From the NCBI RefSeq assembly GCF_011455875.1, contig NZ_CP015031.1, positions 1,841,405 to 1,905,404 of the forward strand: DNA of 64,000 nt, in the 5' to 3' direction. The position numbers and the translations under genes were made by a program. Numbering within the stretch: position 1 is the first letter of the stretch; every line of letters begins with the position of its first letter. Below, piece after piece: positions 4,803 through 32,708 of the stretch. Under the pieces are notes generated by a model. That model saw only the letters and a list, made by a program, of their open reading frames with translations, was not told where the DNA came from and did no database searches. The stretch comes from Basfia succiniciproducens. GTDB taxonomy: Bacteria; Pseudomonadota; Gammaproteobacteria; Enterobacterales; Pasteurellaceae.

Positions 4803-4846
4803 TTTCGTAATTAACCATACAAAAAATATGTGATTTGGAGCAAATT

Positions 4847-6013
4847 ATGCAACGAACTGACGGATTACTTTCTGCTTTAACTCATTCGGTTACCGATGTT
4901 TCACGTCGTGATTTTATGAAATTATGTACCGCGCTTGCCGCAACTATGGGGTTGACTTCAAAAGCAAGCGCGGAGGAAATAACCAACGCATTAACCAACC
5001 CTCAACGCCCGCCGGTAATTTGGATTGGCGCGCAGGAATGCACCGGTTGTACGGAATCTTTGTTACGCGCCACTCACCCGAGCATTGAAAACCTTGTACT
5101 GGATATGATTTCTCTTGAATATCATGAAGTGCTTTCCGCCGCATTTGGCGATCAGGCGGAAGAAAACAAACACCGCGCATTGGAAAAATACAAAGGAAAG
5201 TATGTTTTAGTGGTGGACGGTTCTATTCCCGTTAAAGACGGCGGCGTTTACTGTATGGTGGCGGGCAAACCCATCATAGAGCATATTAAAGAAGCGGCCA
5301 AAGGGGCGGCCGCTATTATTGCCATCGGTTCCTGCTCCGCCTGGGGTGGGGTGCCTTCCAGCGGCGGCAATCCGACCGGTGCGAAAAGTTTATCCGAAGT
5401 TCTGCCCGGTATTCCCGTTATTAATATTCCGGGTTGCCCGCCGAATCCGCATAATTTCCTGGCAACCGTAGCTTATATTCTTACCTATAAAAAATTACCG
5501 GCAACGGATAAATTAAACCGACCTTTATTTGCCTATGACCGTTTAATTCATGAAAACTGTTATCGCCGTCCGCATTTTGATGCCGGCCGTTTTGCGAAAG
5601 AATACGGTGATTACGGGCATCGTCACGGTTGGTGTTTGTATCATTTAGGCTGCAAAGGCCCAGAAACCTATGGTAACTGTTCAACACTGGATTTCTGTGA
5701 TGTGGGCGGTAACAACTGGCCAGTGGGTATCGGACATCCTTGTTACGGTTGTAATGAAAAAGGCGTAGGTTTTACCAAAGGCATATTCCAATTAGCCAAT
5801 GTTGAAAATCCGACCCCGAGGGTTGAAAAACCGGATGTAGCCAATCAGGAAGGGGAAACCGCTTCTATGACCGCCATTGCATTACTGGGTGCCGCCACAG
5901 CCGTTCTTGCCGGAGTTGCGGTCGAAACATTGAAAGAACTTTCCGTCCAACGTAAAAATCAGTTGGAAAAAGAAAAAACAAAGCAAGAAAACAGCAACAA
6001 TACAGGTAAATAA
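4847..6013 (+). CDS. hybO: Hydrogenase-2 small subunit HybO
   Basis: Electron-transfer subunit of the uptake [NiFe]-hydrogenase, carrying three Fe-S clusters and facing the periplasm. The 388-residue product starts with a twin-arginine signal (SRRDFMK near 19-25) ending around KASAEE. Cluster ligands are visible in [33 protein letters not shown] and HPCYGC. A C-terminal hydrophobic helix near 335-358 anchors it in the membrane. The ATG at 4847 is chosen because a TGGAG ribosome site sits six bases upstream; the in-frame TTG at 4835 overlaps that site. First gene of hybOABCDE-G, with hybA two bases later. Confidence 0.95.
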
Positions 6014-6015
6014 GC

Positions 6016-7008
6016 ATGGATAGACGTAAATTTATAAAAGCTGGCATGCTTGGCGGCGTCGCATCTGCGCTACCTTTAAATGCCGCTCATGCGGAAGTCA
6101 AAAATCAAGAGCCGATTCCCGGTGCCTTAGGCATGTTGTATGACTCTACGTTATGTGTGGGCTGTCAGGCTTGTGTGGCGGAATGTCAGAAAATCAACGG
6201 AACGCCGGTTAACCCGAAAGGCGAGCAAACCTGGTCCAATAACGATAAATTATCGCCTTTTACCCGTAATGTCATTCAGGTTTGGTCTGAAGGTGAAGGT
6301 ACCAATAAAGATCAGCCGCAAAATGGTTATGCTTACATAAAAAAACAATGTATGCATTGCGTTGATCCGAACTGTGTGAGCGTTTGTCCGGTTCAAGCCC
6401 TGACGAAAAACCCGAAAACAGGTATTGTGGGCTACGATCCGGATATTTGCACCGGTTGCCGTTATTGTATGGTGGCTTGTCCTTTTGACGTGCCTAAATA
6501 TGATTATGATAATCCTCTGGGTCAAATCAGCAAATGCGAACTTTGTAACCAAAAAGGCGTTGAGCGCATTGATCAAGGCAAATTACCCGGCTGTTGCCAT
6601 GTTTGCCCGACCGGCGCCATTATTTTTGGTTCCCGCGAAGAATTAATGGCGGAGGCTAAACGCCGTTTAAGTATGACTCAGGGAACGGATTATGAATTTC
6701 CCCGCCAACATGTAAACAGCAAAGATAAATATCAGGCGAAAATTCCCGCTTACGAACAGCATATTTACGGTGAAATTGAAGGCGGCGGTACTCAGGTATT
6801 GGTTTTAAGCGGTGTACCTTTTGAAAACCTCGGTTTGCCTCAATTAGACGAAATAGCAACCGGCGCCCGTGCCGCTCATTTACAACATACTTTATACAGA
6901 GGCATGATTCTTCCTTTAGTCGGGCTTGCGGGGTTAACCTTTATAACTTACCGCAATATGCACGGTAAAAAACCAGAACATCACCAAGAGGAGGATAATA
7001 ATGAGTAA
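6016..7008 (+). CDS. hybA: Hydrogenase-2 ferredoxin-like subunit HybA
   Basis: Periplasmic 16-Fe ferredoxin that relays electrons from HybO to the membrane subunit HybB. 330 residues. A Tat signal RRKFIK lies at 3-8. Four cysteine groups follow: [35 protein letters not shown] and the CELC...CCHVC group. A C-terminal hydrophobic segment near 296-314 ([14 protein letters not shown]) probably anchors it. The end overlaps the hybB start by eight bases, so translation is probably coupled. Confidence 0.95.
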
Positions 7009-8221
7009 TCCGCGTCCTGTCGGCGGTCGATTAATTTCCGCATCGATTTTATTCTTCGCACCTCTTGCCGTGATTTGTTTGGCTTTAATCGTTAAACGTT
7101 TATTTTTCGGCATCGGTTCCGTAACCGCATTAAACGGCGGTTATCCCTGGGGGTTATGGATTGCCTTCGATTTATTAGTGGGAACCGGCTTTGCCTGCGG
7201 CGGTTGGGCTTTAGCCTGGACGGTTTATATTTTTAACAAAGGGAAATATCACCCGTTGGTTCGCCCCGCCTTATTAGCAAGCCTGTTTGGTTATAGTCTG
7301 GGCGGCTTATCCATTACTATTGATATGGGACGATACTGGCATTTGCCTTACTTCTTTTTGCCCGGTCAGTTTAATACGAATTCCGTGTTGTTTGAAACCG
7401 CGGTTTGTATGACTATTTACATCTGCGTGGTAACGCTGGAATTTGCGCCCGTATGGTTAGGTTTTTTCGGTTTGAAAAAACTGTTTAAAAAACTAAATAA
7501 AATTATGTTCTTCATTATTGCATTGGGCGCCTTGTTACCTATGATGCACCAATCTTCAATGGGATCATTAATGATTGTTGCCGGACATAAAGTCCACCCA
7601 GCCTGGCAAAGCTATGAAATGCTGCCGGTATTTTCCTTATTAACGGCGTTTATCATGGGATTTTCTATTGTTATTTTTGAAGGTTCGGTGGTAAAGGCAA
7701 GCCTTGCCGGTCAAGCGCCGGACGAGCGCCATTTATTCAGTCAGTTAACGAAAACCGCAGCGGTACTAATCGCATTATTCTTGATGTTCCGTTTCGGCGA
7801 ATTAATTTATAACAATAAGCTGCATTATGTTTTAGGTTTATTTAAATTTGAAGCCTGGATGTTCTGGGCGGAAGTATGGTTAATGACATTACCTCTATTG
7901 GCATTGTTCCTTGGAGAACGGCGTAATGACGGTCGTTGGTTGTTCGTTTCCGCTTTAAGCATGCTATTAGGCGCGGCGCTATGGCGTTTAGACTACTCAA
8001 TGATTATGTATAACCCGGGTAACGGCTATAAATATTTTCCTTCCGGTCAGGAATTATTAATTTCTATCGGTTTCGTGTCTATTGAAGTATGCGCCTATAT
8101 TTTAATTATTCGCTTATTCCCGGTACTACCGGTATTAAAAGAAGCAAATAAAGAAACATCAGAATATATTATCGCTGAAAAAGCGGCGTTAAGTGAAAAC
8201 TTAGCACAAAAAAATAGTTAG
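7001..8221 (+). CDS. hybB: Hydrogenase-2 membrane subunit HybB (NrfD/PsrC family)
   Basis: Integral quinone-reactive subunit of hydrogenase-2, 406 residues against about 392 in E. coli, with roughly ten hydrophobic helices and no haem-binding motif. Residues such as [12 protein letters not shown] near 46 and the MHQSSMGSL stretch near 185 are typical of HybB. It overlaps hybA by eight bases and is followed by hybC after 12 bases. Inferred role: quinone reduction by H2 during anaerobic respiration, for example with fumarate or DMSO as acceptor. Confidence 0.93.
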
Positions 8222-8233
8222 TGGAGAAAAAGC

Positions 8234-9943
8234 ATGACAGATAAAAAACGTATCACAATCGACCCGATCACCCGTATCGAAGGGCATTTACGTATCGATT
8301 GTGAAATTGAAAACGGTGTGGTGACTAACGCCTGGTCAACAGGAACAATGTGGCGCGGCATGGAAAATATAGTTAAAGGCGCCGACCCTCGTGATGCTTG
8401 GATGATTATGCAGCGTATTTGCGGCGTATGTACCACTGTACACGCTATTCTCAGCGTACGTGCGGTGGAAGACGCCGTCGGCGCAAAAGTGCCGTTAAAT
8501 GCGCAATATATCCGCAATATGATTTTAGCCGCTCACAGTATTCACGACCATATTGTGCACTTTTATCAGCTTTCTGCAATGGACTGGGTAGATATTACCG
8601 CCGTATTAAAAGCAGATCCGGAAAAAGCGGCAAATATGCTGAAAGGCGTTTCCAGCTGGGGTTTAAACAGTGCTAATGAATTTCGTAATGTACAGACTAA
8701 AGTGAAAAAATTAGCCGACAGCGGGCAACTCGGTATTTTTGCAAACGGCTACTTCGGGCATCCTGCAATGAAATTAAGTCCGGAAGTCAATTTAATTGCC
8801 GTCGCCCATTATTTGCAAGCCCTTGAATGCCAACGCGATGCCAACCGGGTCGTAGCGTTACTGGGCGGAAAAACACCGCACATTCAAAATCTAGCCATTG
8901 GCGGTGTAGCTAACCCGATTAATTTAGATTCTCAAGCCGTACTCAATCTTGAACGATTAATGTATGTAAAATCCTGTATTGACCGTTTAAATGATTTTAT
9001 CAATCAGGTTTATAAAGTTGATACCGCTATTTTTGCCGCTTATTATCCAGAATGGTTAAATTTAGGTAAAACCTCGGGTAATTATTTGGCGGTTCCCGAA
9101 TATCCTGTTAATGCCGAAAATTCGGAATTTGCTTTAACCGGCGGTTATTTACAAAACTTTGATTTGAACACTTTCCGCCCGATCACTCAACAAAAAGATA
9201 ATTTTGTCGTTCAGGGCATTAAAGAAAGCGGTAAACACGCCTGGTATGAAGATGACGAAGCGCTGGCTCCATGGGCAGGTTTAACCCGTCCGAAATATAC
9301 CCAATGGGATGAAAACGGCAAATATTCTTGGGTAAAAGCGCCGTCATTCTATGATGATGTGGTGGAAGTAGGTCCGTTAGCTTATTTGTTAACTAACCTT
9401 GCGGCAAAAAATGAAGTAACAACCAAACACTTCAATGAATTGAAATCAATTTATGATCAATTGGCAGGTCGCAATTTGGAAATTAATGATTTGCATTCAA
9501 CCTTAGGGCGTATTATCGGCCGTACGGTTCACTGCTGCGCATTAAACGAAATATTAACCCAACAATGGCAATTATTAGTGAATAATATAGGTAAAGGCGA
9601 CACCATCGCCTACTTAAAAGCCAATATTCCGGAAAACGGCGAATTCCGCGGTGTTGGTTTTGGGGAAGTACCGCGCGGTATGTTATCTCACTGGGTGGTG
9701 ATTAAAGACGGTAAAATCGAAAATTATCAGGCGGTTGTACCTTCAACCTGGAACTCAGGCCCACGTAACCAACATGATGCCTTAGGGCCATACGAACAAT
9801 CTTTAATAGGTACACCGGTGTCGGATCCGGCTAAACCGTTGGAAGTGGTACGAACCATTCATTCCTTCGACCCTTGTATGTCCTGCGCCGTTCACGTCGT
9901 GAATACGGAAACGGGCGAAACCACGAAAGTGAAGGTCTTATAA
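8234..9943 (+). CDS. hybC: Hydrogenase-2 large subunit HybC
   Basis: [NiFe] catalytic subunit, 569 residues against 567 in E. coli. The four nickel ligands are Cys63 and Cys66 (RICGVC) and Cys548 and Cys551 (DPCMSC). All are cysteine, so this enzyme does not need selenocysteine even though sel genes lie nearby. The protein ends in a 15-residue tail after His554 (DPCMSCAVH, then VVNTET...), the extension removed by the HybD protease after Ni insertion. It has no signal peptide and should travel with HybO through the Tat system. The stop overlaps the hybD start by one base (TAATG). Confidence 0.96.
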   Translation: MTDKKRITIDPITRIEGHLRIDCEIENGVVTNAWSTGTMWRGMENIVKGADPRDAWMIMQRICGVCTTVHAILSVRAVEDAVGAKVPLNAQYIRNMILAAHSIHDHIVHFYQLSAMDWVDITAVLKADPEKAANMLKGVSSWGLNSANEFRNVQTKVKKLADSGQLGIFANGYFGHPAMKLSPEVNLIAVAHYLQALECQRDANRVVALLGGKTPHIQNLAIGGVANPINLDSQAVLNLERLMYVKSCIDRLNDFINQVYKVDTAIFAAYYPEWLNLGKTSGNYLAVPEYPVNAENSEFALTGGYLQNFDLNTFRPITQQKDNFVVQGIKESGKHAWYEDDEALAPWAGLTRPKYTQWDENGKYSWVKAPSFYDDVVEVGPLAYLLTNLAAKNEVTTKHFNELKSIYDQLAGRNLEINDLHSTLGRIIGRTVHCCALNEILTQQWQLLVNNIGKGDTIAYLKANIPENGEFRGVGFGEVPRGMLSHWVVIKDGKIENYQAVVPSTWNSGPRNQHDALGPYEQSLIGTPVSDPAKPLEVVRTIHSFDPCMSCAVHVVNTETGETTKVKVL

Positions 9944-10422
9944 TGAAGCCGTTAATTCTGGGTGTGGGTAATATTTTACTCAGCGACGAAGGCGTAGGCG
10001 TAAGAGCCGTACAACATTTAGAAAAAAATGCGAATTTTACACCGCACTTTGATCTTGTTGACGGCGGTACTTGCGGTATGGAATTACTTGACGTGATGGC
10101 AAATCGCGATTATTTAATTATTATTGATGCGGTGATTGCCGGCAAGCGGCCCGGTGAAATAGTCGTTCTGAAAGACGAACAGGTACCGGCGCTTTTTTCG
10201 CGTAAAATATCGCCGCACCAATTAGGTATTTGTGATGTATTATCGGCCTTAAAACTAACCGACGAATATCCCAAACATCTTTGTCTTATCGGGATTCAGC
10301 CCGAATCCCTTGAGTCTCACATAGGTTTAACAAAAACCGTTGAAAATGCAATGCCGGCTGTTTTTCAGTGTTTGGCGCAACAATTAACCGACCTTGGTCT
10401 ACCTTCTCCCGTAATTAATTAG
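9943..10422 (+). CDS. hybD: Hydrogenase-2 maturation endopeptidase HybD
   Basis: Cytosolic protease that trims the HybC C-terminal tail once nickel is in place. 159 residues from the ATG overlapping the hybC stop (TAATG). The nickel-sensing residues are present: Glu16 (SDEGVG), Asp62 (IDAVIAG) and His92 (SPHQLG), essentially at the E. coli positions. A longer reading upstream inside hybC is possible but would not fit the family. Confidence 0.94.
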   Translation: MKPLILGVGNILLSDEGVGVRAVQHLEKNANFTPHFDLVDGGTCGMELLDVMANRDYLIIIDAVIAGKRPGEIVVLKDEQVPALFSRKISPHQLGICDVLSALKLTDEYPKHLCLIGIQPESLESHIGLTKTVENAMPAVFQCLAQQLTDLGLPSPVIN

Positions 10423-10429
10423 GAATATC

Positions 10430-10942
10430 ATGTATAATCATAACGAAAATAAGGAAAATTCCACCGCACTTTTAGAACTGATTGACGGATTTGAACAAAA
10501 TCCGGCTGAACTATTTCAAACAGAAATGGAAAAAGTTGCGAAAAATATGAAAGACTTACCTTTTTATCGTGAGGATATTCCCTGTTTCTGTCCGAAATTC
10601 GTGCAATTCGAAAATCAATGGATTGGCATGGTGCTTACTCCCTGGATGTTAAGCGTTTTAGTGCTTCCCGGTCCGAATCAGCAATGGAAAGCGCGCACGG
10701 TAGGTGACAAAATTGCTCTTGCGTTTCCTTATAAAACCCTGAATTTTACGGTAAGCAGTCTGGATAATGTTCCGCAATATTTAAGCTGTTCGTTACATTC
10801 GCCTTTAGAAGCGAATTTGAGTAAAGAGCATGCCGTTCAGTTAACCAAAGACTGTCTGACTATGCTGCTATCCCTGCCAATAAAACAAAAGGCGCCGGCG
10901 GATCTAAACCGTCGTAATATGTTCGGCGCAATGTTAAAATAA
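10430..10942 (+). CDS. hybE: Hydrogenase-2 chaperone HybE
   Basis: Tat-proofreading chaperone that binds HybO and helps assemble it with HybC before export. 170 residues. The conserved core [17 protein letters not shown], the [10 protein letters not shown] stretch and [10 protein letters not shown] are easily recognised as HybE family. ATG with an AGGAAT ribosome site, seven bases after hybD. An uptake signal core (ACCGCACTT) lies within the first codons at about 10462. Confidence 0.9.
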
Positions 10943-14534: not shown

Positions 14535-15488
14535 ATGACTACACAACTTGATGCATTACGCAATATGACTGTGGTGGTTGCCGATACGGGTGATATCGAA
14601 GCAATCAAAAAATATCAACCGCAAGACGCAACAACAAACCCGTCTCTTATTCTTAGTGCTTCAGCATTACCCCAATATGCCTCGTTAATTGATGACGCAA
14701 TTAATTATGCGAAAGCAAAAAGTACCGACAAAGCGCAACAACTCATTGATGCGGAAGATAAATTAGCGGTTAATATCGGTCTGGAAATTTTAAAAATCGT
14801 GCCGGGACGTATTTCTACCGAAGTAGATGCACGTCTTTCCTATGACACGGCGGCAACCGTTGAAAAAGCCCGTAAGTTAATCAAACTTTATAATGAAGCC
14901 GGTATTAATAATGATCGTATTTTGATCAAAGTCGCTTCTACATGGCAAGGTATCCGTGCGGCGGAAATTTTAGAAAAAGAAGGCATTAATTGTAACTTGA
15001 CCCTTTTATTCTCTCAAGCTCAAGCACGCGCCTGTGCCGAAGCCGGTGTTTATCTGATTTCACCTTTTGTGGGCCGTATTCTTGACTGGTACAAAGCAAA
15101 TACGGATAAAAAAGAATATGTTCCAAACGAAGACCCGGGCGTTATTTCCGTAACAAGTATTTATAACTATTACAAACAATACGGGTATCAAACCGTTGTA
15201 ATGGGTGCGAGTTTCCGCAATATCGGCGAAATTACCGAATTAGCGGGTTGCGATCGCTTAACCATTGCACCTGCTTTATTAAAAGAATTACAAGAAAGCA
15301 ATGCAGACTTACCGCGTAAACTCGATTATAAAGGTGAGGTCAAACCAAAACCGGCACCATTAACAGAAAGTCAATTCTACTGGGAACATAACAACGATCC
15401 GATGGCGGTTGATAAATTAGCCGAAGGTATCCGTAAATTTGCTGCGGATATTGAAAAACTGGAAGCAATGCTTAGTACAAAACTTTAA
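14535..15488 (+). CDS. talB: Transaldolase B
   Basis: Pentose-phosphate pathway enzyme moving a dihydroxyacetone unit between sedoheptulose-7-P and glyceraldehyde-3-P; cytosolic. 317 residues, as in E. coli. The Schiff-base lysine is Lys132 (RILIKVAST), and Asp17 (VVADTGD) and the TTNPSL motif (33-38) are present. Start ATG with a GAGGAA ribosome site. It occupies the side of oriC where mioC sits in E. coli. Confidence 0.97.
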
Positions 15489-15514
15489 TCTAAAGTTTAT
15501 AAAAATTTAATCAG

Positions 15515-15541
15515 GCACGATGTAAAAATCGTGCTTTTTTT
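15515..15541 (+). terminator. Rho-independent terminator after talB
   Basis: GCACGAT and ATCGTGC form a seven-bp stem around a six-nt loop, followed by seven or more T. It shields the adjacent origin from talB transcription. Confidence 0.88.
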
Positions 15542-15550
15542 ATTTTAGAT

Positions 15551-15904
15551 TGTGGATAACTTACTAAGAAAATTGTAAAAAACTTGTATTTAATCTATTA
15601 ATAAGTTTAACTCTTAATTAATCTGTGGATAACCAGATGTGTTATACACAGGTTATTTTACATCTAAGATCGAGATCTTCACATCTTGTAAAATGATCTA
15701 ACTTATTTATTTTATTATAAAAAAGGATCTTATAAACAGGATCTGTTCCCCCTAATAATATTAATAATAAGATCTTTATATATAAATAAAATCTTTATTT
15801 ATTAGCAATGATCTTTTATCTCCGGTTTTAAAAGGATCTTTACAAATTTTCTTTAAAGCACTTGTAAATTTCAGTAGAATAGCTCGTTATTTTCAAAAAA
15901 GATC
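15551..15904. other. oriC: Chromosomal replication origin (oriC)
   Basis: A 464-bp gene-free gap between talB and mnmG. Perfect DnaA boxes: TGTGGATAA at 15551-15559 and 15624-15632 (TTATCCACA on the minus strand) and TTATACACA at 15642-15650; a weaker TTATAAACA lies at 15730-15738. Nine GATC sites fall within 237 bp (15668, 15674, 15695, 15726, 15740, 15771, 15810, 15835, 15901), far above chance and typical of SeqA/Dam-controlled origins. Five begin GATCT runs resembling the E. coli 13-mers (GATCTnTTnTTTT), in very AT-rich DNA on the mnmG side. As in E. coli, the unwinding side faces mnmG (gidA) and the strongest boxes lie farther away. The mnmG-rsmG-atp order next to it is the classic gammaproteobacterial origin neighbourhood. 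Confidence 0.93.
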
Positions 15905-15952
15905 AAATTTTGCTAATCCTCATTTATTAGCATTTTAAAAGTTAAGGTTATT

Positions 15953-17842
15953 ATGTTTTATTCTGAGAATTATGACGTTATTGTTATTGGTGGCGGACAT
16001 GCGGGAACAGAAGCCGCACTTGCTCCCGCCCGTATGGGATTGAAAACCCTTTTGCTGACTCACAATATAGATACTTTAGGTCAAATGTCTTGTAATCCAG
16101 CTATAGGTGGGATTGGTAAAGGACATTTAGTAAAAGAAATTGATGCTATGGGCGGTTTAATGGCAACCGCAGCTGATCAGGCGGGAATTCAATTTAGAAC
16201 CTTAAACAGCAGTAAAGGCCCAGCAGTGAGAGCAACCCGCGCGCAAGCGGATCGCGTTTTATACCGCCAAGCGGTAAAAGTAGCTCTGGAAAATCAACCT
16301 AATTTGGATATTTTCCAGCAGGAAGCCACAGATATTTTAATTGAGCAGGATCGAGTTACCGGCGTAGCTACGAGAATGGGATTAAAATTTAAAACAAAAT
16401 CGGTTATTCTAACGGCAGGTACCTTCCTGGGCGGAAAGATCCACATAGGTTTGGATAATTATACCGGAGGCCGGGCGGGTGATCCCGCCTCTATCGCTCT
16501 GGCGGATCGTTTACGCGATCTTAATTTGCGTGTAGCCCGTTTAAAAACAGGAACTCCACCGCGTTTGGATGCAAGAACTATTAATTTTGATATTCTGGCA
16601 AAACAACATGGTGATGCGCAATTACCGGTATTTTCTTTTATGGGATCTGTGGATCAGCATCCCCGTCAAATACCTTGCTTTATTACTCATACCAATGAAC
16701 AAACTCATGAAGTGATCCGTAATAATTTGGATCGTAGCCCGATGTACACCGGTGTGATAGAAGGTATAGGTCCTCGTTATTGTCCTTCTATCGAAGATAA
16801 AGTTATGCGATTTGCGGATCGTAATTCCCATCAGATTTATTTGGAACCGGAAGGTTTAACTTCACAGGAAATTTATCCGAACGGGATATCTACCAGCTTG
16901 CCTTTTGATGTGCAAATGAAGATTGTTAATTCAATGGTTGGTTTGGAAAAAACCCGAATTGTCAAACCGGGTTATGCCATTGAATATGATTTCTTTGATC
17001 CGCGTGATTTAAAGCCGACATTGGAAACGAAAGCCATTAAAGGTTTATTCTTTGCCGGGCAAATTAACGGAACGACAGGTTATGAAGAAGCGGCTTCCCA
17101 AGGTTTGTTAGCGGGCATTAATGCCGGTTTATTCGTACAGGAAAAAGAAAGTTGGTTCCCGCGCCGTGACCAGGCTTACATGGGCGTATTGGTGGATGAC
17201 CTTTGTACCTTAGGTACTAAAGAACCCTATCGTGTGTTTACATCCCGCGCGGAATATCGTTTATTATTACGTGAAGACAATGCGGATAGCCGTTTAACGC
17301 CGATAGCTCATGAATTAGGATTAATAGACGAAAATCGCTGGGCGCGTTTTAATCAAAAAATGGAAAATATTGAACGGGAACGTCAGCGTCTACGCAATAT
17401 TTGGATTCACCCTCGTTCAGAACATTTGGATGTGATAAACGAAGTGTTAAGCAGTCCGTTGGTTCGTGAGGCTAGCGGCGAAGATTTGTTGCGTCGTCCG
17501 GAAATAAATTACCAAATTTTGACCGCACTTGATTTATTCAAACCGGCAATGGATGATAAAGAAGCTGTTGAACAAGTGGAAATAGCCGTAAAATATCAAG
17601 GTTATATCGAACATCAGCAAGAAGAAATTGAAAAACAAAAACGCCATGAAAATACGGCAATTCCGGACAATTTCGATTATACATTGGTTGCAGGTTTATC
17701 TAATGAAGTGCGTGCAAAGTTAGAACAACATCGCCCTGTTTCTATCGGACAAGCTAGTCGTATTTCCGGCGTAACACCTGCCGCTATTTCTATTTTATTG
17801 GTTAATCTTAAAAAACAAGGAATGCTTAAGCGTGGTGAATAA
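15953..17842 (+). CDS. mnmG: tRNA uridine-34 carboxymethylaminomethyl-modifying enzyme MnmG
   Basis: FAD-dependent partner of MnmE that makes cmnm5U34 in certain tRNAs (formerly gidA). 629 residues, full length. The FAD-binding motif [12 protein letters not shown] is at 11-22, the [12 protein letters not shown] signature near 46-57, and the [15 protein letters not shown] region near 340. First gene to the right of oriC. Its end overlaps the rsmG start by about 10 bases. Confidence 0.97.
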
Positions 17843-18473
17843 GCTTGAACAAGAGCTTACTCAAAAGCTCGAAATTTTGCTAAAACAGACTGCACTTTCT
17901 ATATCCGATCAGCAAAAAAATAAGCTTGTTCAACTGGTGTTGTTACTTAATAAATGGAATAAAGCTTATAACCTTACTTCCGTACGGGATCCGATGGAAA
18001 TGCTGATTAAGCATATTTTAGATAGTGTGGTAGTAAGTCCTTATTTACAAGGTGATCTGTTTATTGATGTGGGAACAGGCCCCGGTTTGCCCGGTTTACC
18101 TTTAGCTATTATTAACCCGGATAAAAATTTTGTATTGCTCGACAGTCTCGGAAAACGCATCAGTTTTATCCGTAATGCGGTGCGCGAGTTAGAATTATCT
18201 AATGTTGTTCCGGTATTAAGTAGGGTGGAAGAATATATTCCCGATCATAAATTTGACGGTATATTGAGCCGAGCTTTTGCCAGTTTAAAGGATATGACGG
18301 ATTGGTGTCATCATTTACCGAATGAAAAAGGCTTGTTTTATGCGCTGAAAGGCGTTTATCAACAAGAAGAAGTGATGGATATGGGCAATAATTTTCAGGT
18401 TATTGATGTTATAAAATTGCATGTACCTGAACTAATTGGTGAACGTCATTTAGTTAAAGTTAAAAAAATGTAA
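17832..18473 (+). CDS. rsmG: 16S rRNA (guanine527-N7)-methyltransferase RsmG
   Basis: Methylates G527 of 16S rRNA (formerly gidB). 213 residues with the SAM loop [15 protein letters not shown] near 77-91 and the family motif [10 protein letters not shown] near 40. Starts at one of two GTG codons (17832 or 17835) that overlap the 3' end of mnmG, so it is translationally linked to it. Followed by the promoter of the atp operon. Confidence 0.95.
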
Positions 18474-18512
18474 AATTTATGATTTATTTGCGTTTTTTTC
18501 ACCTTGTTTGAG

Positions 18513-18541
18513 TTGGAATAAAACGGAAATATGCGTATAAT
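18513..18541 (+). promoter_or_regulatory. Putative sigma-70 promoter of the atp operon
   Basis: TTGGAA (18513-18518), a 17-bp spacer and a perfect TATAAT (18536-18541). The predicted start near 18548 is about 22 bases before the atpI ATG. Confidence 0.6.
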
Positions 18542-18569
18542 CAATACGCTTTTATATGTAAAAAGGGTT

Positions 18570-19759
<1,190 letters not shown>

Positions 19760-19788
19760 TTTTTAACTAACCCCGGCCTTCGGGCTAA

Positions 19789-20067
<279 letters not shown>

Positions 20068-20134
20068 TTGTCGATAGGTTTTTAGCTGAATTTGCTCTTT
20101 TGAGTAACCGACAATATTAACAGAGGAGGGTGTT

Positions 20135-20605
20135 GTGAATTTAAATGCAACATTAATTGGTCAACTTATTGCTTTCGCATTATTTACATGGTTTTGCGTA
20201 AAATTTGTTTGGCCGCCGATTATTAAGGCTATTGAAGAACGTCAAAGTTCTATTGCTAACGCTTTGGCATCGGCTGAAAAAGCAAAACAAGATCAGGCAG
20301 ATTATCAAGCCGCAGTTGAGCAGGAAATTCTGGCGGCAAAAGAAGAAGCGCAAAAAATTATTGATTTAGCAAATAAACGTCGTAATGACATTCTTGAAGA
20401 AGTAAAAACGGAAGCGGAAAATCTGAAAGCGACCATTATTGCTCAAGGTCATGCGGAAGTGGAAGCGGAACGTAAACGCGTTCAGGAAGAGTTACGCGTG
20501 AAAGTTGCGTCACTGGCTATTGCCGGGGCGGAAAAAATTGTTGGTCGTACTGTGGATGAAGCGGCAAACAACGACATTATTGATAAATTAGTTGCAGAAC
20601 TATAA
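20135..20605 (+). CDS. atpF: ATP synthase Fo subunit b
   Basis: Peripheral stalk subunit. 156 residues: an N-terminal membrane helix (about 5-26), then a long charged coiled coil. Starts at GTG (20135) behind a strong GAGGAGGG ribosome site. Confidence 0.96.
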
Positions 20606-20618
20606 GAAGGTTGAGCTT

Positions 20619-21164
20619 ATGTCAGAATTAACTACGATAGCTCGCCCTTATGCCAAGGCAGCGTTTGATTTTGCCGTGGAACAATCGGCTACTGATAAAA
20701 GTGCGGTAGAAAAATGGACGGAAATGTTGGGTTTTGCGGCACAAGTAGCCGACAATGAGCAAATCCGGGATTTTTTTGCCAATACTTTTTCAGTTCAAAA
20801 AGCCGCTGACGCGATGGTTTCAATTTGTGGCGAACAACTTGATCAATACGGGCAAAATCTGATTAGGTTAATGGCTGAAAATAAGCGTTTAACGGTGCTT
20901 CCCGCAGTATTTGACGAATTTCAACGTTATGTGGAAGAACATAATGCAACAGCGGAAGTTCAAGTCATCTCGGCGCAACCATTAAATGCAACACAAGAAC
21001 AAAAAATTGCAGCCGCAATGGAAAAAAGACTTGCTCGTAAAGTTAAATTAAATTGCAGCGTAGATAATTCTCTGCTTGCAGGGGTTATTATTCGTACCGA
21101 CGATTTTGTGATTGACGGCTCAAGCCGCGGACAACTCAATCGTTTGGCAAACGAGTTGCAATGA
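20619..21164 (+). CDS. atpH: ATP synthase F1 subunit delta
   Basis: Links F1 to the b-subunit stalk. 181 residues from the ATG at 20619 (AAGAAGG upstream), beginning [16 protein letters not shown], the standard delta N-terminus. The C-terminal motif [20 protein letters not shown] is present. An upstream in-frame ATG at 20592 lies inside atpF and is not preferred. Confidence 0.96.
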
Positions 21165-21179
21165 TAAGAGGAATTCAAA

Positions 21180-22721
21180 ATGCAACTAAATTCAACAGAA
21201 ATTAGTGAATTGATTAAAAAACGCATTGCCCAGTTTGATGTAGTGAGCGAAGCTCGCAATACCGGGACAATCGTTTCAGTGAGTGACGGAATTATCCGTA
21301 TTCACGGTTTAAGTGAAGTGATGCAGGGGGAAATGATTGCACTTCCTACCGGTCGTTTTGCGATGGCATTAAACTTAGAGCGTGATTCTGTCGGCGCGGT
21401 GGTAATGGGTCCTTATACGGATCTTGCCGAAGGTATGGAAGTACAATGTACGGGCCGTATTCTGGAAGTGCCGGTAGGTCGCGGTTTATTAGGTCGTGTG
21501 GTCAATACTCTTGGTCAACCGATTGACGGTAAAGGTGAAATTAAAAATGACGGATTTTCTCCGGTAGAAGTGATTGCGCCCGGTGTTATCGATCGTAAAT
21601 CGGTAGATCAACCGGTACAAACCGGTTATAAAGCCGTTGACTCTATGGTGCCTATTGGTCGCGGACAACGCGAATTAATTATCGGTGACCGTCAAACCGG
21701 TAAAACCGCTCTTGCTATTGATGCAATTATCAACCAACGGGATTCCGGCGTTAAATGTATCTATGTGGCGGTTGGTCAAAAAGCTTCAACTATTGCTAAC
21801 GTGGTACGTAAATTGGAAGAAAACGGTGCGTTAGCGAACACTATCGTGGTAGCCGCATCGGCATCCGAATCCGCCGCATTACAATATTTAGCGCCGTATG
21901 CGGGTTGTGCTATGGGTGAATATTTCCGTGATCGCGGTGAAGACGCTTTAATCGTTTATGACGATTTATCCAAACAAGCGGTTGCTTATCGCCAAATTTC
22001 ATTATTATTACGTCGTCCGCCGGGTCGTGAAGCTTATCCGGGTGATGTATTCTATTTACACTCGCGTTTACTTGAACGAGCTGCACGGGTTAATGAAGAA
22101 TATGTTGAAAACTTCACTAAAGGTGAAGTGAAAGGTAAAACCGGTTCTTTAACGGCGTTACCTATCATTGAAACTCAAGCGGGTGACGTTTCGGCATTCG
22201 TTCCTACTAACGTGATTTCTATTACCGACGGTCAGATTTTCTTAGAATCCAACCTGTTCAACGCCGGTGTTCGTCCTGCGGTAAACCCGGGTATTTCGGT
22301 ATCTCGTGTAGGTGGTGCGGCGCAAACTAAAGCGGTGAAAAAATTAGCCGGCGGTATTCGTACTGCGCTTGCTCAATATCGTGAACTGGCTGCCTTTGCT
22401 CAATTTGCTTCGGATTTAGATGATGCGACACGCAAACAGTTATCTCACGGTGAAAAAGTGACCGAATTGTTGAAACAGAAACAATATGCGCCGTTATCGG
22501 TTGCTGAACAGGCGGTAATTTTATTTGCCGTTGAATTCGGTTATTTAGATGATGTGGAATTGAATAAAATTGCCGATTTTGAGACCGCACTTTTAGATTA
22601 CGCAAATCGTACTAATACCGAGTTTATGCAAGAGTTAACGAAATCGGGCGATTATAACGATGAAATTAAAAATACGTTAAAAGGTATTTTGGATAATTTC
22701 AAAGCGAATAATACCTGGTAA
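21180..22721 (+). CDS. atpA: ATP synthase F1 subunit alpha
   Basis: Non-catalytic nucleotide-binding subunit, 513 residues as in E. coli. Walker A GDRQTGKT is at 169-176; the arginine-finger region VSRVGGAAQ lies near 373. An uptake signal core (ACCGCACTT) falls in the coding region near 22584. Confidence 0.98.
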
Positions 22722-22738
22722 TAGTTCGGAGAAAGACA

Positions 22739-23608
22739 ATGGCTAGCGGAAAAGAGATAAAAACCAAAATTGCCAGCGTACAGAGTACGCAGAAAATTAC
22801 CAAGGCAATGGAAATGGTGGCTACGTCGAAAATGCGTAAAACTCAGGATCGCATGGCAGCCTCTCGGCCTTATTCTGAAACCATCAGAAATGTAATCAGC
22901 CACGTGTCTAAAGCGAGTATCGGTTATAAACACCCATTTTTAGTTGAACGCGAAGTGAAAAAAGTGGGTATGCTTGTGATTTCAACGGATCGCGGTATGT
23001 GCGGCGGTTTGAATATTAATTTATTTAAAACCGTGTTGAATGAAATCAAAAAATGGAAGGAACAAGGTATTACGGTTGAAGTCGGTGTGATCGGTTCAAA
23101 AGGTATTGCTTTCTTCCGTTCTTTAGGTTTAAAAATCAGAGCTCAACATTCGGGAATGGGTGATAATCCATCTGTGGAAGAATTACTTGGTATTGCAAAT
23201 GATATGTTTGATGCCTATAAAGACGGCAAAATTGACGCCTTGTATTTAGCGCATAATCAGTTTATCAACACAATGTCGCAAAAACCAAGTTTTGCACAGC
23301 TTGTACCTTTACCCGAATTGGATACCGATAATCTAGGCGAAAGACAACAGGCTTGGGATTATATTTACGAGCCGGATCCAAAAATGCTGTTAGACAGCTT
23401 ACTGACTCGTTATTTGGAATCTCAGGTGTATCAATCGGTGGTTGATAATTTAGCTTCGGAACAGGCGGCTCGAATGGTGGCAATGAAAGCGGCAACGGAT
23501 AATGCGGGTAATTTAATTAATGACCTGCAGTTGGTGTATAACAAAGCCCGTCAAGCAAGTATCACAAATGAATTAAATGAAATTGTTGCGGGCGCCGCAG
23601 CAATTTAA
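22739..23608 (+). CDS. atpG: ATP synthase F1 subunit gamma
   Basis: Central rotor shaft, 289 residues. The N-terminal helix [21 protein letters not shown] and the C-terminal helix [14 protein letters not shown], which form the coiled coil inside the hexamer, are both intact. Starts 17 bases after atpA and ends 15 bases before atpD. Confidence 0.98.
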
Positions 23609-25000
<1,392 letters not shown>

Positions 25001-25037
25001 TCACTTCAACTGATTACCAGATTGAAGGAGAACACAT

Positions 25038-25466
25038 ATGACGACATTTAATTTAACTATCGTAAGTGCGGAGAATAAAATCTTCGAAGGTGCTGTCAAA
25101 AGTGTACAGGCAACGGGGATCGAAGGCGAACTAGGTATTTTAGCCGGGCATACTCCATTGCTTACGGCAATCAAACCGGGTATCGTTAAATTTACTTATA
25201 ACGACGGTATTGAAGAAGTTATTTACGTTTCCGGCGGGTTTTTAGAAATACAGCCGAACGTAGTAACCGTACTTGCCGATGTGGCGATCCGTGGTTCCGA
25301 TCTCGATCAAGATCGTATTCTTGCAGCGAAGAAAAAAGCGGAAGACAATATCGTGGCGAAATCAGGCGATCTCAACCACGAAATGCTCACTGCAAAACTT
25401 TCGAAAGAACTTGCGAAACTGCGTGCTTACGAACTGACCGAAAAATTAGTGAAAAACAAACGCTAA
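25038..25466 (+). CDS. atpC: ATP synthase F1 subunit epsilon
   Basis: Regulatory rotor subunit, 142 residues: N-terminal beta sandwich ([19 protein letters not shown] near 30-48) and C-terminal helical hairpin. Last gene of the operon; a strong terminator follows. Confidence 0.97.
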
Positions 25467-25480
25467 TTTTAACCGCACTT

Positions 25481-25517
25481 AAAGCCGTTCCCAAAAATAG
25501 GAACGGCTTTATTTTTA
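25481..25517 (+). terminator. Rho-independent terminator of the atp operon
   Basis: AAAGCCGTTCC and its exact complement GGAACGGCTTT form an 11-bp stem around CAAAAATA, followed by ATTTTTA. An uptake signal half (ACCGCACTT) sits just upstream at 25472. Confidence 0.9.
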
Positions 25518-25551
25518 GGCGTTTGTTTTCTATTTTTAACAGGAAATTAAT

Positions 25552-26337
25552 ATGCAATACAAAGCCATTTTCAGCGATATAGACGGGACTTTACTGAACA
25601 GCCGGCATCAGATTAGTTCAAAAACCGAATCCGCCATTAAATTAGCCGTTAGCAAAGGTATTCCCTTTATCCCTGTTTCCGCTCGTCCGCCTTATGCTAT
25701 AACCCCTTATACCGAACAGTTACAAACTAACCAAGGAATTATTTGTTACAGCGGCGCGTTGATTTTAGATAAAAATCTGCGGGAACTCTATAGCGTTCAA
25801 ATAGATCAGGCTGATTTAGCGGTGCTTAATCAAATTCTTGCGGATTATCCGCATCTATCTATAAACCATTACGCCGCTTTAGACTGGTTCTCTAATGATT
25901 TGGATAATTATTGGACAAAGCAGGAGGCTGATATTACGGGTTTATTTCCAAAACAAACACCTTCCAACCTCACCAAAGTACATAAAATTTTAGTAATGGG
26001 CGAGGCGGATAAAATTAAACCCCTTGAGCAAAAACTTAAACAAAAATTACCGCACTTGAGCATTCATCTTTCTAAACCCGAATATATTGAAATCATGAAC
26101 AAAGCGGCAACCAAAGCGAAGGCTATCGGTTTTATGGAACGGCATTTACATGTTAGTGCCGATGAAGTAATTGCTTTCGGCGATAACTTCAACGATTTGG
26201 ATATGCTTGAATACGCGGGTTTAAGTGTTGCTATGGGCAATGCGCCAGACGAAATCAAACAAGTTGCCAAAAAAGTGACGGCAAGTAATGATGAAGACGG
26301 AATCGCATTAGTACTAAATGAAATATTTAACCTTTAA
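25552..26337 (+). CDS. Cof-type HAD-superfamily sugar-phosphatase
   Basis: Predicted Mg-dependent phosphatase of the Cof/YidA class (HAD IIB), 261 residues. Motif I FSDIDGTLL gives the nucleophile Asp9 and Asp11; motif IV GDNFNDLDML near 207 supplies metal ligands; Lys in KAIGF near 190 fits motif III. Substrate unknown; relatives dephosphorylate sugar phosphates or flavin/pyridoxal phosphates. It has its own ATG with an AGGAA ribosome site after the atp terminator. Confidence 0.85.
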   Translation: MQYKAIFSDIDGTLLNSRHQISSKTESAIKLAVSKGIPFIPVSARPPYAITPYTEQLQTNQGIICYSGALILDKNLRELYSVQIDQADLAVLNQILADYPHLSINHYAALDWFSNDLDNYWTKQEADITGLFPKQTPSNLTKVHKILVMGEADKIKPLEQKLKQKLPHLSIHLSKPEYIEIMNKAATKAKAIGFMERHLHVSADEVIAFGDNFNDLDMLEYAGLSVAMGNAPDEIKQVAKKVTASNDEDGIALVLNEIFNL

Positions 26338-26362
26338 CTTCTTTTTAAAAAAGAATCTTTAT

Positions 26363-27079
26363 ATGTTTTCGAAAATTATCAATACTTTTATTATTTGTTT
26401 CACGCTATGCAGTTGTTCTTTGATTAATAATGCGCTGGAAGAAATGCAGAAAAATATTGATAGCAATCAGCAACAAATAAACAGCATGAAAAAAGTGGCG
26501 ATTATTTATAATGCAAAAGAAATTGAAGCTATTGTTGTAACGCCAGCAAAATATGCGAATAAATCTCCTTTGATCGAATCAATAAAGAAAAATTATGAAA
26601 TAAAAACGCAAAACTATACGTTACAATTTAATGAAAAAGTAAAAGCCGAACAGGAAAAATCTTCTATCAATCAATATTTTGCTCATGAATTGTCAAAAAA
26701 AATAGAACAAGCTGGCTATCAGGTGACTTTAGTTGATAAGGCGGATATGACTAATTTGAATGCATATTTAGCCAAAACGCCAAAAATTGACGGTGTAATT
26801 AAGTTAAATATCATGCTTGGTTATACAAGTCCGGATAATTCATTTTTATTTGAACCTTCCACACTTATTAATTATGAAGTCTATAACAAAACCGCTCAAC
26901 GCTTGAGTCATGGTAAAGTCGGCGCTATCGGCGGCTGGATTAGTGATAAATACATGACTTTTAACGGATTATATGAAGATGCGGACAATGCGCGGGCTAA
27001 ATTGAAAAAATATTTAATGGACAATTTAGATTCAACCGCTCAAGAAATACTAAAAGTGACAGTATCTAATCTTAATTGA
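26363..27079 (+). CDS. Putative lipoprotein of unknown function
   Basis: Not recognised as a named family. From the ATG at 26363 the 238-residue product begins with a short hydrophobic signal (MFSKIINTFIICFTLCSCS) whose LCSC could be a lipobox; the cysteine at -2 is unusual. The mature part is lysine-rich and mixed alpha/beta, with EIEAIVVTPAKYANKS and a C-terminal region GAIGGWISDKY. An alternative start at 26318 would overlap the previous gene and bury the signal peptide, so it is rejected. It is AT-richer than its neighbours and followed by its own terminator, so probably monocistronic. Confidence 0.6.
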   Translation: MFSKIINTFIICFTLCSCSLINNALEEMQKNIDSNQQQINSMKKVAIIYNAKEIEAIVVTPAKYANKSPLIESIKKNYEIKTQNYTLQFNEKVKAEQEKSSINQYFAHELSKKIEQAGYQVTLVDKADMTNLNAYLAKTPKIDGVIKLNIMLGYTSPDNSFLFEPSTLINYEVYNKTAQRLSHGKVGAIGGWISDKYMTFNGLYEDADNARAKLKKYLMDNLDSTAQEILKVTVSNLN

Positions 27080-27107
27080 TAGTTGATTATGTGATAGTAA
27101 AATCACT

Positions 27108-27138
27108 AAAAGTGCGGTAAATTTTACCGCACTTTTTT
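27108..27138 (+). terminator. Inverted uptake-signal terminator after the lipoprotein gene
   Basis: AAAAGTGCGGTAAA at 27108-27121 and its exact complement at 27123-27136, ending in a T run: two facing uptake signals forming a 14-bp stem with a one-base centre. Confidence 0.8.
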
Positions 27139-27155
27139 ATGGTAAGAAATTTATT

Positions 27156-27899
27156 ATGAATCTTAATAACCCAATAAAATCAGGATTTAAATCCGATTTA
27201 AAAAAATCTACAGGTAAATCCGCCTTTTATAACAAAAAAAGAAAAAGTGCGGTGAGTTTTAATCAAAATTCTGTAACCAAAAGACAGAAATCTAAACAGC
27301 TCGCTTTTTCCGAAACGCAGGTCATTCTGTTTAATAAACCTTTTGATGTATTAACGCAATTTACCGATGAAAACGGGCGAGCCACCTTAAAAGACTTTAT
27401 TCATATTCCTGATGTTTATGCGGCGGGACGGCTGGATCGCGATAGCGAGGGGTTACTTATTTTAACGAATAACGGTGAAATCCAGCACCGTTTGGCGGAT
27501 CCTAAATTTAAAATGGAGAAGACTTATTTTGTTCAGGTTGAAGGCGAACCGACGGAAACGGATTTGGCAAAATTACGTCAAGGCGTTGAGCTTAAAGACG
27601 GTATGACCCGTCCGGCAAAAGTGCGGTTGATTGCACAACCCGATTTTATTTGGCAACGCACACCGCCTATTCGAGAAAGAAAATCCATTCCTACCAGTTG
27701 GCTTGAAATAAAAATTAGTGAGGGCAAAAACCGCCAGGTTCGTCGTATGACTGCCAATATCGGCTTTCCTACACTGCGTTTGATTCGCTATGCCGTAAGT
27801 TCATTCACATTGGATAATTTAGCAAACGGAAGTTATCGGCTACTGACCGACAATGAGTTAGAAGGTTTATATAAAACATTAAAATTAACTAAGGAATAA
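27156..27899 (+). CDS. rluE: 23S rRNA pseudouridine(2457) synthase RluE
   Basis: RsuA-family pseudouridine synthase, 247 residues. The catalytic aspartate lies in [13 protein letters not shown] near 88-100; [12 protein letters not shown] and the ENRQVRRM-like GKNRQVRRM motif near 190 are typical. There is no S4 domain; instead there is a basic low-complexity N-terminus of about 50 residues (lysine/serine-rich). Two bases upstream of nudJ, the same pairing as in E. coli. Confidence 0.88.
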
Positions 27900-27901
27900 T
27901 T

Positions 27902-28360
27902 ATGCTGAAACCTCATGTAACAATGGCTTGTATTGTGCATTGCAAAGGTAAGTTTTTGTTTGTGGAAGAAATTGAATATGGCAAACGCACCTTAAATCAA
28001 CCGGCCGGGCATCTGGAAGAAAACGAAACCATTCTTGAAGGTGCAAGCCGGGAGCTTTATGAAGAAACGGGTATTCGGGCAAAAATGCAGCATTTAGTGA
28101 AAATTTATCAATGGCACGCACCGCGCAGCCAAAAGGATTATTTACGTTTTGTTTTTGCGCTAGAATTGGATGATTGGGCTGAAATTACTCCGCATGATTC
28201 CGATATTACACAGGGGTTTTGGCTGACTTTAGAAGAATTTAATTATTATATTCGGCAAGAAAACCAATGTGCCCGCAACCCGTTGGTGACAGAGGCCCTT
28301 GAAGATTATTTAGCCGGTTCCCGTTATCCTTTGGATATACTGACTTTATTTAATAATTAA
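27902..28360 (+). CDS. nudJ: Nudix hydrolase NudJ (phosphatase on HMP-PP and nucleotides)
   Basis: Nudix pyrophosphohydrolase, 152 residues, with a complete Nudix box running from GHLEENE through EGASRELYEETGI near 37-59. In E. coli NudJ (YmfB) acts on nucleoside tri/diphosphates and hydroxymethylpyrimidine-PP. Starts two bases after rluE, so probably co-transcribed. Confidence 0.87.
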   Translation: MLKPHVTMACIVHCKGKFLFVEEIEYGKRTLNQPAGHLEENETILEGASRELYEETGIRAKMQHLVKIYQWHAPRSQKDYLRFVFALELDDWAEITPHDSDITQGFWLTLEEFNYYIRQENQCARNPLVTEALEDYLAGSRYPLDILTLFNN

Positions 28361-31090: not shown

Positions 31091-31091
31091 C

Positions 31092-32489
31092 TTATTGGTC
31101 CTGATTTAGTTCTTCTAGGGTTATAAGCAAGGTTTCAATAGCCGTAACAGAACGCAAATCCAGCCGGATTTTGTTGTTTTCTACCCGTGCTATAATCGGG
31201 GTTGAAAGTTTTTTGAAACGGGCTAAAAGTGCGGTCAATTTTTCCGAATTTTTTTCGGCAATAGTCACTGCAATAGAGGGAATTTTTGCCATAGGTTGCG
31301 AACCGCTACCTATTTGCGCCGAACTTGATTCGATTTGCAGTAAAAAATCATCTTTCAGTAAATTTTCCAGTTTTGCTTTTAATTGTTCCGCTTGCTGCCT
31401 TAATTGTTCGAGCGGTTGCGTAAGTAAACGCAAACTTGTGAGTTTTTCCGTTAATTTTTCCGGTTGCAGATATAAACGCAAAGTGGCTTCCAGAGCAGCC
31501 AGAATCACTTTATCGCAACGTAAAACCCGTTTTAACGGATGAGATTGTAACTGTTGAATCAGTTCTTTTTTTCCAACAATAATTCCCGCCTGCGGGCCGC
31601 CCAGCAGTTTATCGCCGGAAAAGGAGATTAAATCCGCTCCTTGTACTAATTTTTCCTGCACCGTAGGTTCTTTTGGCAAATCGTAGCGGGATAAATCCGT
31701 CAGTGCGCCGCTGCCAAGATCGGTAACCACGGGAATATTGAATTCTTTACCTAATTCCACTAATTCCTGTTCGCTTACTTCGCAGGTAAAACCGCAAATC
31801 TGATAGTTACTGCTGTGAACTTTCATTAACAATGCGGTATTTTCATTGATTGCCCGGCGATAATCGTTTAAATGAGTACGGTTTGTAGTGCCGACTTCCA
31901 CCAGTTTGCAACCCGCCTGCGCCATAATATCGGGAATGCGGAAAGCCCCGCCGATTTCAATTAATTCTCCGCGGGAAATAATCACTTCCTTGCCTTGGGC
32001 AAAAGTTGCCAGCATTAACAGCACCGCCGCGGCATTATTATTCACCACACAGGCTGCCTGTGCGCCGGTGAGTTCATGTAATAATTCGCTGACATAATTA
32101 TCTCGATGGCTGCGTTTGCCCGCCTCTAAATCGTATTCTAACGCCACATTTTGGCGCATAGCGGTCAGCGCCGCCTGTTGTGCGGATTGCGCCCACAAGG
32201 CGCGCCCTAAATTAGTATGCAGCACCGTACCCGTCAGGTTATGAACGGATTTTATTTTAACTTGCTGTTGGTTGGCTAAATAGCGGTTAACTTCGGCGAT
32301 TGTATGGTTAAAGTCCGTGAAAAAGTGCGGTAATTTTTTTTCAATTTTTATTTTTTCACGGGCTTGAGCGAGTAGATGACGGCAACAATTCACTACCGCG
32401 CTATGTCCAAATTCAGTTACAAGCTGTTCGCCTTGAGGAGTTTTGAGAATTTTATCCACAGAGGGCAACTGTTGAAAAAGTGCGGTCAT
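31092..32489 (-). CDS. selA: L-seryl-tRNA(Sec) selenium transferase SelA
   Basis: PLP enzyme converting Ser-tRNA(Sec) to Sec-tRNA(Sec) with selenophosphate. 465 residues; the PLP lysine is Lys294 in [13 protein letters not shown] (Lys295 in E. coli). ATG preceded by AAAGGA on the minus strand. An uptake signal core overlaps the first codons (about 32477). Confidence 0.96.
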
Positions 32490-32570
32490 TTTTTTTCCTT
32501 TTTTGTTTCAGAAACGAATGTTTGTATTTTAAGTTGTATTTTACAATTAAGCTATCCCGGATTTTATTCC

Positions 32571-32599
32571 TTGAATAATAGAATAATTTAAGCTAAAGT
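32571..32599 (+). promoter_or_regulatory. Putative promoter of selC
   Basis: TTGAAT (32571-32576), a 17-bp spacer and TAAAGT (32594-32599), with a predicted start about eight bases before the tRNA. The remaining gap between the selA start (32489) and here shows no other feature. Confidence 0.45.
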
Positions 32600-32613
32600 T
32601 TTCAACGCAATCC

Positions 32614-32708
32614 GGAAGGTCGTCGTGTCCGGTGATGCGGCAGGACTTCAAATCCTGTTAGGGCTGCCAGCAGTCCTGGGTGGGTTCGACTCCCATGACC
32701 TTCCGCCA
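32614..32708 (+). tRNA. selC: tRNA-Sec (UCA anticodon)
   Basis: 95-nt selenocysteine tRNA with encoded CCA. It has the diagnostic eight-bp acceptor stem (GGAAGGTC with GACCTTCC), an anticodon stem-loop GGACTTCAAATCC carrying TCA at 32648-32650, a long extra arm (TAGGGCTGCCAGCAGTCCT region) and a GGTTCGACTCC T-loop. Discriminator G at 32705. Overall very close to E. coli selC. It reads UGA in selenoprotein mRNAs; no selenoprotein gene was found in the window. Confidence 0.97.

Follow-up and report, generated by a model that had tools for sequence, protein, structure and literature searches.

The gap between talB and mnmG (gidA) in this Pasteurellaceae chromosome very probably holds the chromosomal origin of replication, oriC, at positions 15551-15805 of the window. 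This conclusion comes from sequence comparison: the segment is homologous to and collinear with E. coli oriC, it is found at the switch in GC skew opposite dif, and the genome encodes the regulators of initiation. An oriC beside mnmG is of an ordinary and known kind, known also within the Pasteurellaceae. The noteworthy variant is a shift from R1 to I2, in which the third consensus DnaA box, alongside R4 and R2, occupies the position of the E. coli I2 site and the R1 position is degenerate.

Identity and setting of the origin

The window is the whole stretch of DNA that was analysed, 64,000 nucleotides corresponding to bases 1,841,405-1,905,404 of a single-contig genome of 2,253,194 bp. The best-identity relatives of its mnmG are all from the Pasteurellaceae, and an mnmG tree nests the gene within the family. 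The gap (15489-15952) is gene-free and 464 bp long, as the original prediction had it, and has a GC content of 0.233 compared with 0.420 for the window. The three perfect DnaA boxes (TTATNCACA) and the nine GATC sites in 237 bp that had been described were both recovered. The gap aligns with E. coli oriC and with the region upstream of mnmG in all 72 Pasteurellaceae loci examined, and the reading of this region as a chromosomal origin is supported by the boxes, the GATC sites, the alignment to E. coli oriC, the skew and dif. The genes that run from mnmG to nudJ were also correctly described as leading away from the origin, with all ORFs of at least 100 aa within 15953-28360 on the plus strand. 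The gene names are backed by NCBIfam for talB, mnmG, rsmG, rluE and the scanned atp genes, while 'nudJ' is a Nudix-type protein with no name above the cut-off. Further to the right, selB and selA lie beside tRNA-Sec (29231-32708), followed by a dmsA/ynfE-type reductase operon from 32859.

The density of sites is exceptional within the 784 kb that were scanned (35% of the genome). This DNA contains 49 consensus DnaA boxes, or 0.029 per 464 bp, and the oriC gap is the sole place in it with two or more in 464 bp. The nine GATC sites in 237 bp are likewise the maximum, the next separate places having six. Among 20,000 first-order Markov copies of the gap none reached three boxes and none reached nine GATC sites. 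Searches of the gap found no plasmid-borne relatives and no Rfam match, and no Fis site is claimed since the one-mismatch matches were all to a loose palindromic consensus.

In twenty sampled 20-kb stretches and the window, GC skew stays above zero between 1 and about 0.70 Mb and below zero between 0.79 and 1.37 Mb; it is mixed between 1.46 and 1.71 Mb, negative again at 1.80 Mb, and above zero in the window. The expectation that the cumulative skew should have its minimum at the origin was borne out in part, over these samples and 464 contiguous kb: the sign switches at oriC, but the minimum of the contiguous stretch lies 17 kb to the left, at 1,840,186 (-3115, against -3008 at the oriC boxes). 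Inside those 17 kb is the hyb hydrogenase operon (4835-10942), which lies on the plus strand, points towards oriC and is positive in skew; it may account for the displacement of the minimum. This Hydrogenase-2 operon belongs to the left arm, where it is on the lagging strand and no more than 11 kb from oriC. A dif-like core at 699,824, a perfect match to an E. coli-like core, misses the antipode of oriC by 30.7 kb, or 1.4% of the genome, the distance between oriC and dif being 1,095,919 bp one way and 1,157,275 bp the other. Genes for DnaA, SeqA, Dam and IHF-alpha (ihfA) are present in the genome, and dnaA lies apart from the origin, as it also does in E. coli.

It is very improbable that the origin lies elsewhere, for example at a four-box cluster beside rppH (2,250,166-2,250,442) or near dnaA, which is located at 53,075 (53 kb), with the gap only titrating DnaA. 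The rppH cluster lies outside the 784 kb scan and is the denser of the two, having four consensus boxes in 277 bp, more than the oriC gap, and an A+T content of about 0.7. However, the sampled skew is positive on either side of it, it has four or five GATC sites per 500 bp as against nine in 237 bp, its boxes have the order, and very nearly the sequence, of those in E. coli DARS2, which also adjoins rppH, and it is the talB/mnmG gap that is homologous to E. coli oriC. A second origin at the rppH cluster was rejected on the same box order, and a TTATCCACA pair at 2,169,825 was discarded as a candidate because it is located within trmB and has a single GATC per 500 bp around it.

The cluster fills the rppH/mltR gap (L193:1167-1443), outside the window, where the four consensus boxes are accompanied by a CTATCCACA. 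The order, strands and 12-bp step of its core match the E. coli rppH-mutH gap, which we take to be DARS2, and the rppH/mltR gap is a probable Pasteurellaceae DARS2. Primer names in PMC4585315 also point to the E. coli rppH-mutH gap as DARS2.

The replacement of mioC by talB, part of the original prediction, is true here and in two of the 72 relatives (L026, Pasteurella bettyae, and L038, Mesocricetibacter), and left flanks vary widely in the family. Of the 72 loci, 40 have mioC no more than 4 kb to the left of oriC (adjacent in 39, behind lptD in one) and 30 have neither gene, although for three of these 30 (L043, L059 and L082) the judgement is only partial, with less than 1.8 kb of upstream DNA. 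In the present genome mioC is at 1,779,297, 77 kb from oriC and directly after gyrB; gyrB follows beyond an origin-adjacent mioC in four loci. Given this variation among the 72 loci and the separate location of mioC here, next to gyrB, the talB edge is a local rearrangement breakpoint and not part of the origin. Many different genes occupy this flank across L021-L092, so rearrangements seem often to have had a breakpoint at the left edge of oriC; the mnmG side of these loci is fixed by the MnmG search itself. The terminator that follows talB, ahead of the first box, would shield oriC from talB transcription.

Arrangement of sites within the gap

The sites identified are collected in Table 1.

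Table 1. Features of the oriC region and its neighbours, in window coordinates; fractions refer to the 73 Pasteurellaceae origins.
Feature	Position	Strand	Evidence
talB (transaldolase), left neighbour, reads towards oriC	14535-15488	+	NCBIfam TIGR00874, 545.5 bits
Intrinsic terminator after talB	15513-15545	+	9-bp stem and T tract; fold z -4.35
DnaA box, R4 position, TTATCCACA	15551-15559	-	Alignment; consensus in 73/73
DnaA box, R2 position, TTATCCACA	15624-15632	-	Alignment; consensus in 68/73
DnaA box, E. coli I2 position, TTATACACA, 9 bp from R2	15642-15650	+	Alignment; consensus in 56/73
Dam/SeqA-type GATC cluster, nine sites	15668-15904		Counts and chance controls
R5M position, ATCTTCACA, two mismatches to TTATNCACA	15675-15683	+	Alignment
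IHF-type site, AATAAATAAGTTA, one mismatch, E. coli register	15699-15711	-	Alignment
R1 position, degenerate box, TTATAAACA	15730-15738	+	Alignment
DNA unwinding element (DUE)	15752-15805		TAA-type trinucleotide run 15753-15770, minus-strand TTATT motifs, 13-mer-like repeats
mnmG (gidA), right neighbour, reads away from oriC	15953-17842	+	NCBIfam TIGR00136, 980.5 bits

The assignment of the third box to I2 is exact. With E. coli oriC numbered as in PMC12342881, where the first base of R1 is 71, the E. coli I2 site is TGGGATCAG at 159-167, and the same alignment columns are occupied in the window by the third box. Together with R2 this box forms an inverted pair, in the register (9 bp) and orientation of E. 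coli I2. The E. coli scaffold has a consensus box at R1, beside the DUE, and a low-affinity I2; here the R1 position reads TTATAAACA, and the sequence at I2, TTATACACA, predicts a strong site. The proposal that the layout matches that of E. coli holds for the collinear order of sites and for the DUE facing mnmG; it had not noticed that the third strong box is at I2 and that R1 is degenerate.

The DUE has an A+T content of 0.80, compared with 0.63 in E. coli, over 60 nt. The GATCT 13-mer-like repeats reported previously need qualification: there is no exact GATCTNTTNTTTT, with matches appearing only at two or three mismatches, although the E. coli 13-mer stretch does align here. A test for DnaA-trios found five of six trios after the R1 position, with a degenerate adjoining box and one interruption in the run. 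The strict KAK run is three in the window, the same as in E. coli, and five when one miss is permitted; a KAK/trio run of five with one miss is found in 27 of 73 Pasteurellaceae origins, in none of the nine outgroup origins and in 10 of 2190 shuffles. As a distinguishing feature of this genome an expanded KAK or trio run is weak, given the strict run of three as in E. coli.

The box pattern in related origins

What, then, is the distribution of this arrangement? A scan with MnmG provided 80 named loci, 72 from Pasteurellaceae (L021-L092) and eight from elsewhere (three Pantoea/Mixta, four Photobacterium and one Proteus), giving 73 Pasteurellaceae origins with the window and nine outgroup origins with E. 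coli. In all 80 the gap preceding mnmG could be aligned to E. coli oriC. One locus titled Pseudomonas stutzeri (L045) is counted in the Pasteurellaceae, as the tree places it with Haemophilus; the mnmG and origin of this strain, NCTC11607, are Haemophilus-like and it is probably mislabelled. All alignment columns were searched for consensus boxes. The R4 sites of L031 and L061, which read as ten letters in the alignment, were counted as consensus in the column search and on the tree, where the box is looked for inside those letters, and the I2 of L090, which reads as eight, was counted as non-consensus.

At R1 just 27 of the 73 Pasteurellaceae origins have a consensus box, the other three positions having the frequencies given in Table 1, and any other column has one in at most two origins. 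The nine outgroup origins all have consensus boxes at R4 and R1, five have one at R2 and none at I2. The commonest pattern in the family is R4, R2 and I2 without R1 (30 of 73), followed by all four boxes (24), R4 and R2 only (10), R4 only (5) and smaller classes; the ten with R4 and R2 lack both R1 and I2, and five more are without R2 as well. Mismatches at R1 number none in 27 origins, one in 26, two in 17 and three in three. The sample includes closely related strains (among them several Haemophilus, Rodentibacter and Aggregatibacter), so a tally of origins does not give the number of events. The minimum number of changes in the Pasteurellaceae, counted on the mnmG tree, is zero for R4, one for R2, nine for I2 and 11 for R1. 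The idea that loss of R1 is compensated by gain of I2 was not supported: when independent pairs were compared on this tree, the states of the two sites were not associated.

A strong R1 with a weak I2 is common to Enterobacterales and Photobacterium, so the Pasteurellaceae state of a strong I2 and weak R1 is probably derived, a reading that draws on an outgroup of nine rows and on an order-level phylogeny that we assume to be correct. The R5M position has changed too, with three or more mismatches in 43 of 73 Pasteurellaceae origins and in none of the nine outgroup origins. An IHF-type site in the E. coli register is present in 59 of the 73, and an IHF site with at most one mismatch lies between R1 and R5M in 48, as against 192 of 1460 shuffles; that of the window has one mismatch.

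DnaA and the order of assembly

In E. coli, R1, R2 and R4 hold DnaA for most of the cell cycle; DnaA at R1 recruits DnaA to R5M and an array grows from there towards R2, and I2 has a preference for ATP-DnaA (PMC6727663). DnaA bound at R1 and R5M is said to play the main part in holding the single-stranded DUE, for which Arg245 is a basic residue of DnaA (PMC5742627). In the present origin both of these positions are weaker, a point against the reading given here. R1 was first found to be essential and later dispensable, with asynchronous initiation (PMC4585315, citing others).

The DnaA of the present genome shares 71 of 94 domain-IV residues with that of E. coli. It carries the E. coli residue at each of the seven domain-IV positions checked, which we presume to be those that contact the box, so boxes should be recognised by the same code. 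The place of Arg245 is taken by Gly. Over 59 Pasteurellaceae DnaAs (this one and those of 58 genomes) residue 245 is Gly in 26, Lys in 21, Ala in six, Val in three and Leu, Arg and Ile in one each, so that Arg245 is kept in a single protein, while Val211 is kept in 54. A link between R1 loss and residue 245 was looked for and none is evident: Gly accompanies an R1 consensus in 10 cases and its absence in 16, and Lys in eight and 13. The DnaAs of Actinobacillus minor (L187), Mannheimia haemolytica (L188) and Haemophilus sputorum (L189) have Ile or Leu at the Val211 place and match Bac_DnaA with E-values of about 1e-56 to 1e-58, the others reaching 1e-66 or better.

With R4, R2 and I2 as the strong sites, the most economical reading has the left array start at I2, next to R2, and extend to the DUE. 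In such a scheme DnaA would be constantly bound at R4, R2 and the I2-position box, and ATP-DnaA would then occupy the weak left sites in the order I2, R5M and degenerate R1, with a bend introduced by IHF between R5M and R1. In the DUE the TTATT strand would melt and be held by the DnaA array, after which the helicase would be loaded and forks would leave in both directions, GATC sites, Dam and SeqA presumably delaying re-firing. That the left array in this origin is anchored at I2 beside R2, and not seeded from R1 as in E. coli, is suggested tentatively from the sequence. The broader proposal, that the Pasteurellaceae build the left orisome the opposite way to E. coli, from a bound inverted R2-I2 pair in mid-oriC that seeds an ATP-DnaA array outward to the DUE, is more doubtful; bearing on it are the repeated decay of R1 and the rarity of Arg245 (one of 59). 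If it were true, the timing of initiation would rest on other sites than in E. coli.

Two alternatives concern the roles of R1 and I2. R1 could work just as in E. coli, with TTATAAACA binding DnaA through cooperation and IHF and the I2 box being merely an extra strong site, a possibility that deserves as much credence as anchoring at I2 in this origin. The spacing of the R1 position is kept, 53 of 73 origins have at most one R1 mismatch, the IHF register relative to R1 is maintained, and the E. coli rppH-mutH gap (DARS2) also has a TTATAAACA. Moreover, assembly of ATP-DnaA on the left half in E. coli depends on R5M rather than R1 (PMC5742627). Set against this, R1 is conserved less well than any of the other three box positions, having changed at least 11 times on the tree. 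It is less likely that the I2-position box serves some other role, such as transcription control or DnaA titration, and is neutral for the order of assembly. Its consensus is lost in 17 of 73 origins through at least nine changes, and so it is not indispensable, and comparable changes in an evolved E. coli oriC slowed amplification and helped in competition for scarce DnaA (PMC12342881); yet the exact 9-bp register with R2 and the E. coli I2 orientation argue against this. Seeding from I2 aside, the 73 natural origins keep R4 and R2 nearly unchanged and have shifted or dropped the third strong box. Nature has run the R1-loss and I2-gain "experiments" many times, where work on E. coli takes R1, R2 and R4 as a constant scaffold.

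Comparison with known systems

The closest system is E. coli K-12 oriC (NC_000913 3925744-3925975, between mnmG and mioC), with which the present origin shares collinear R4, R2, IHF site, R1 position and GATC sites, a DUE towards mnmG and an R2-I2 spacer of 9 bp (E. coli value from PMC5742627). It differs in its degenerate R1, consensus I2, weaker R5M, more AT-rich DUE and in having talB instead of mioC.

Within the family, predicted oriC regions of Actinobacillus pleuropneumoniae JL03, Haemophilus ducreyi and Pasteurella multocida have four or five listed boxes and 72-74% A+T (PMC2175527). That of JL03 also adjoins gidA (mnmG), with cof and not talB on the left, and the material available from this paper gives box counts and per-base conservation for the three without assigning R1 or I2. 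The accessible text of gammaBOriS (PMC7174414) names neither Pasteurella nor Haemophilus. No account of a strong I2 or weak R1 in Pasteurellaceae, or of the box map described here, was found in the literature searched, which mostly excludes subscription journals, so that the evidence for novelty is weak.

The DnaA-trio system of Bacillus subtilis and Helicobacter pylori resembles the present origin in having a trinucleotide run beside a DnaA-box position (PMC8287927), but here it is a degenerate box that adjoins the run, and the run has one interruption. The trio score of E. coli is itself described as relatively weak (PMC8287927).

Finally, an E. coli oriC evolved in vitro, selected for copying an AT-rich template, moved I2 towards the DnaA consensus (G161T) and became richer in A+T within the DUE (Suzuki and Su'etsugu 2025, PMC12342881). 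It differs in that tau2 and I1 were changed too, the listed mutations falling in the DUE and tau2-I1-I2 with none in R1. One selection in vitro has also reached a change at I2. With the repeated loss of R1 and gain of I2 in nature, this means that an exchange of two 9-mers in a laboratory strain of E. coli could test the order in which the orisome assembles.
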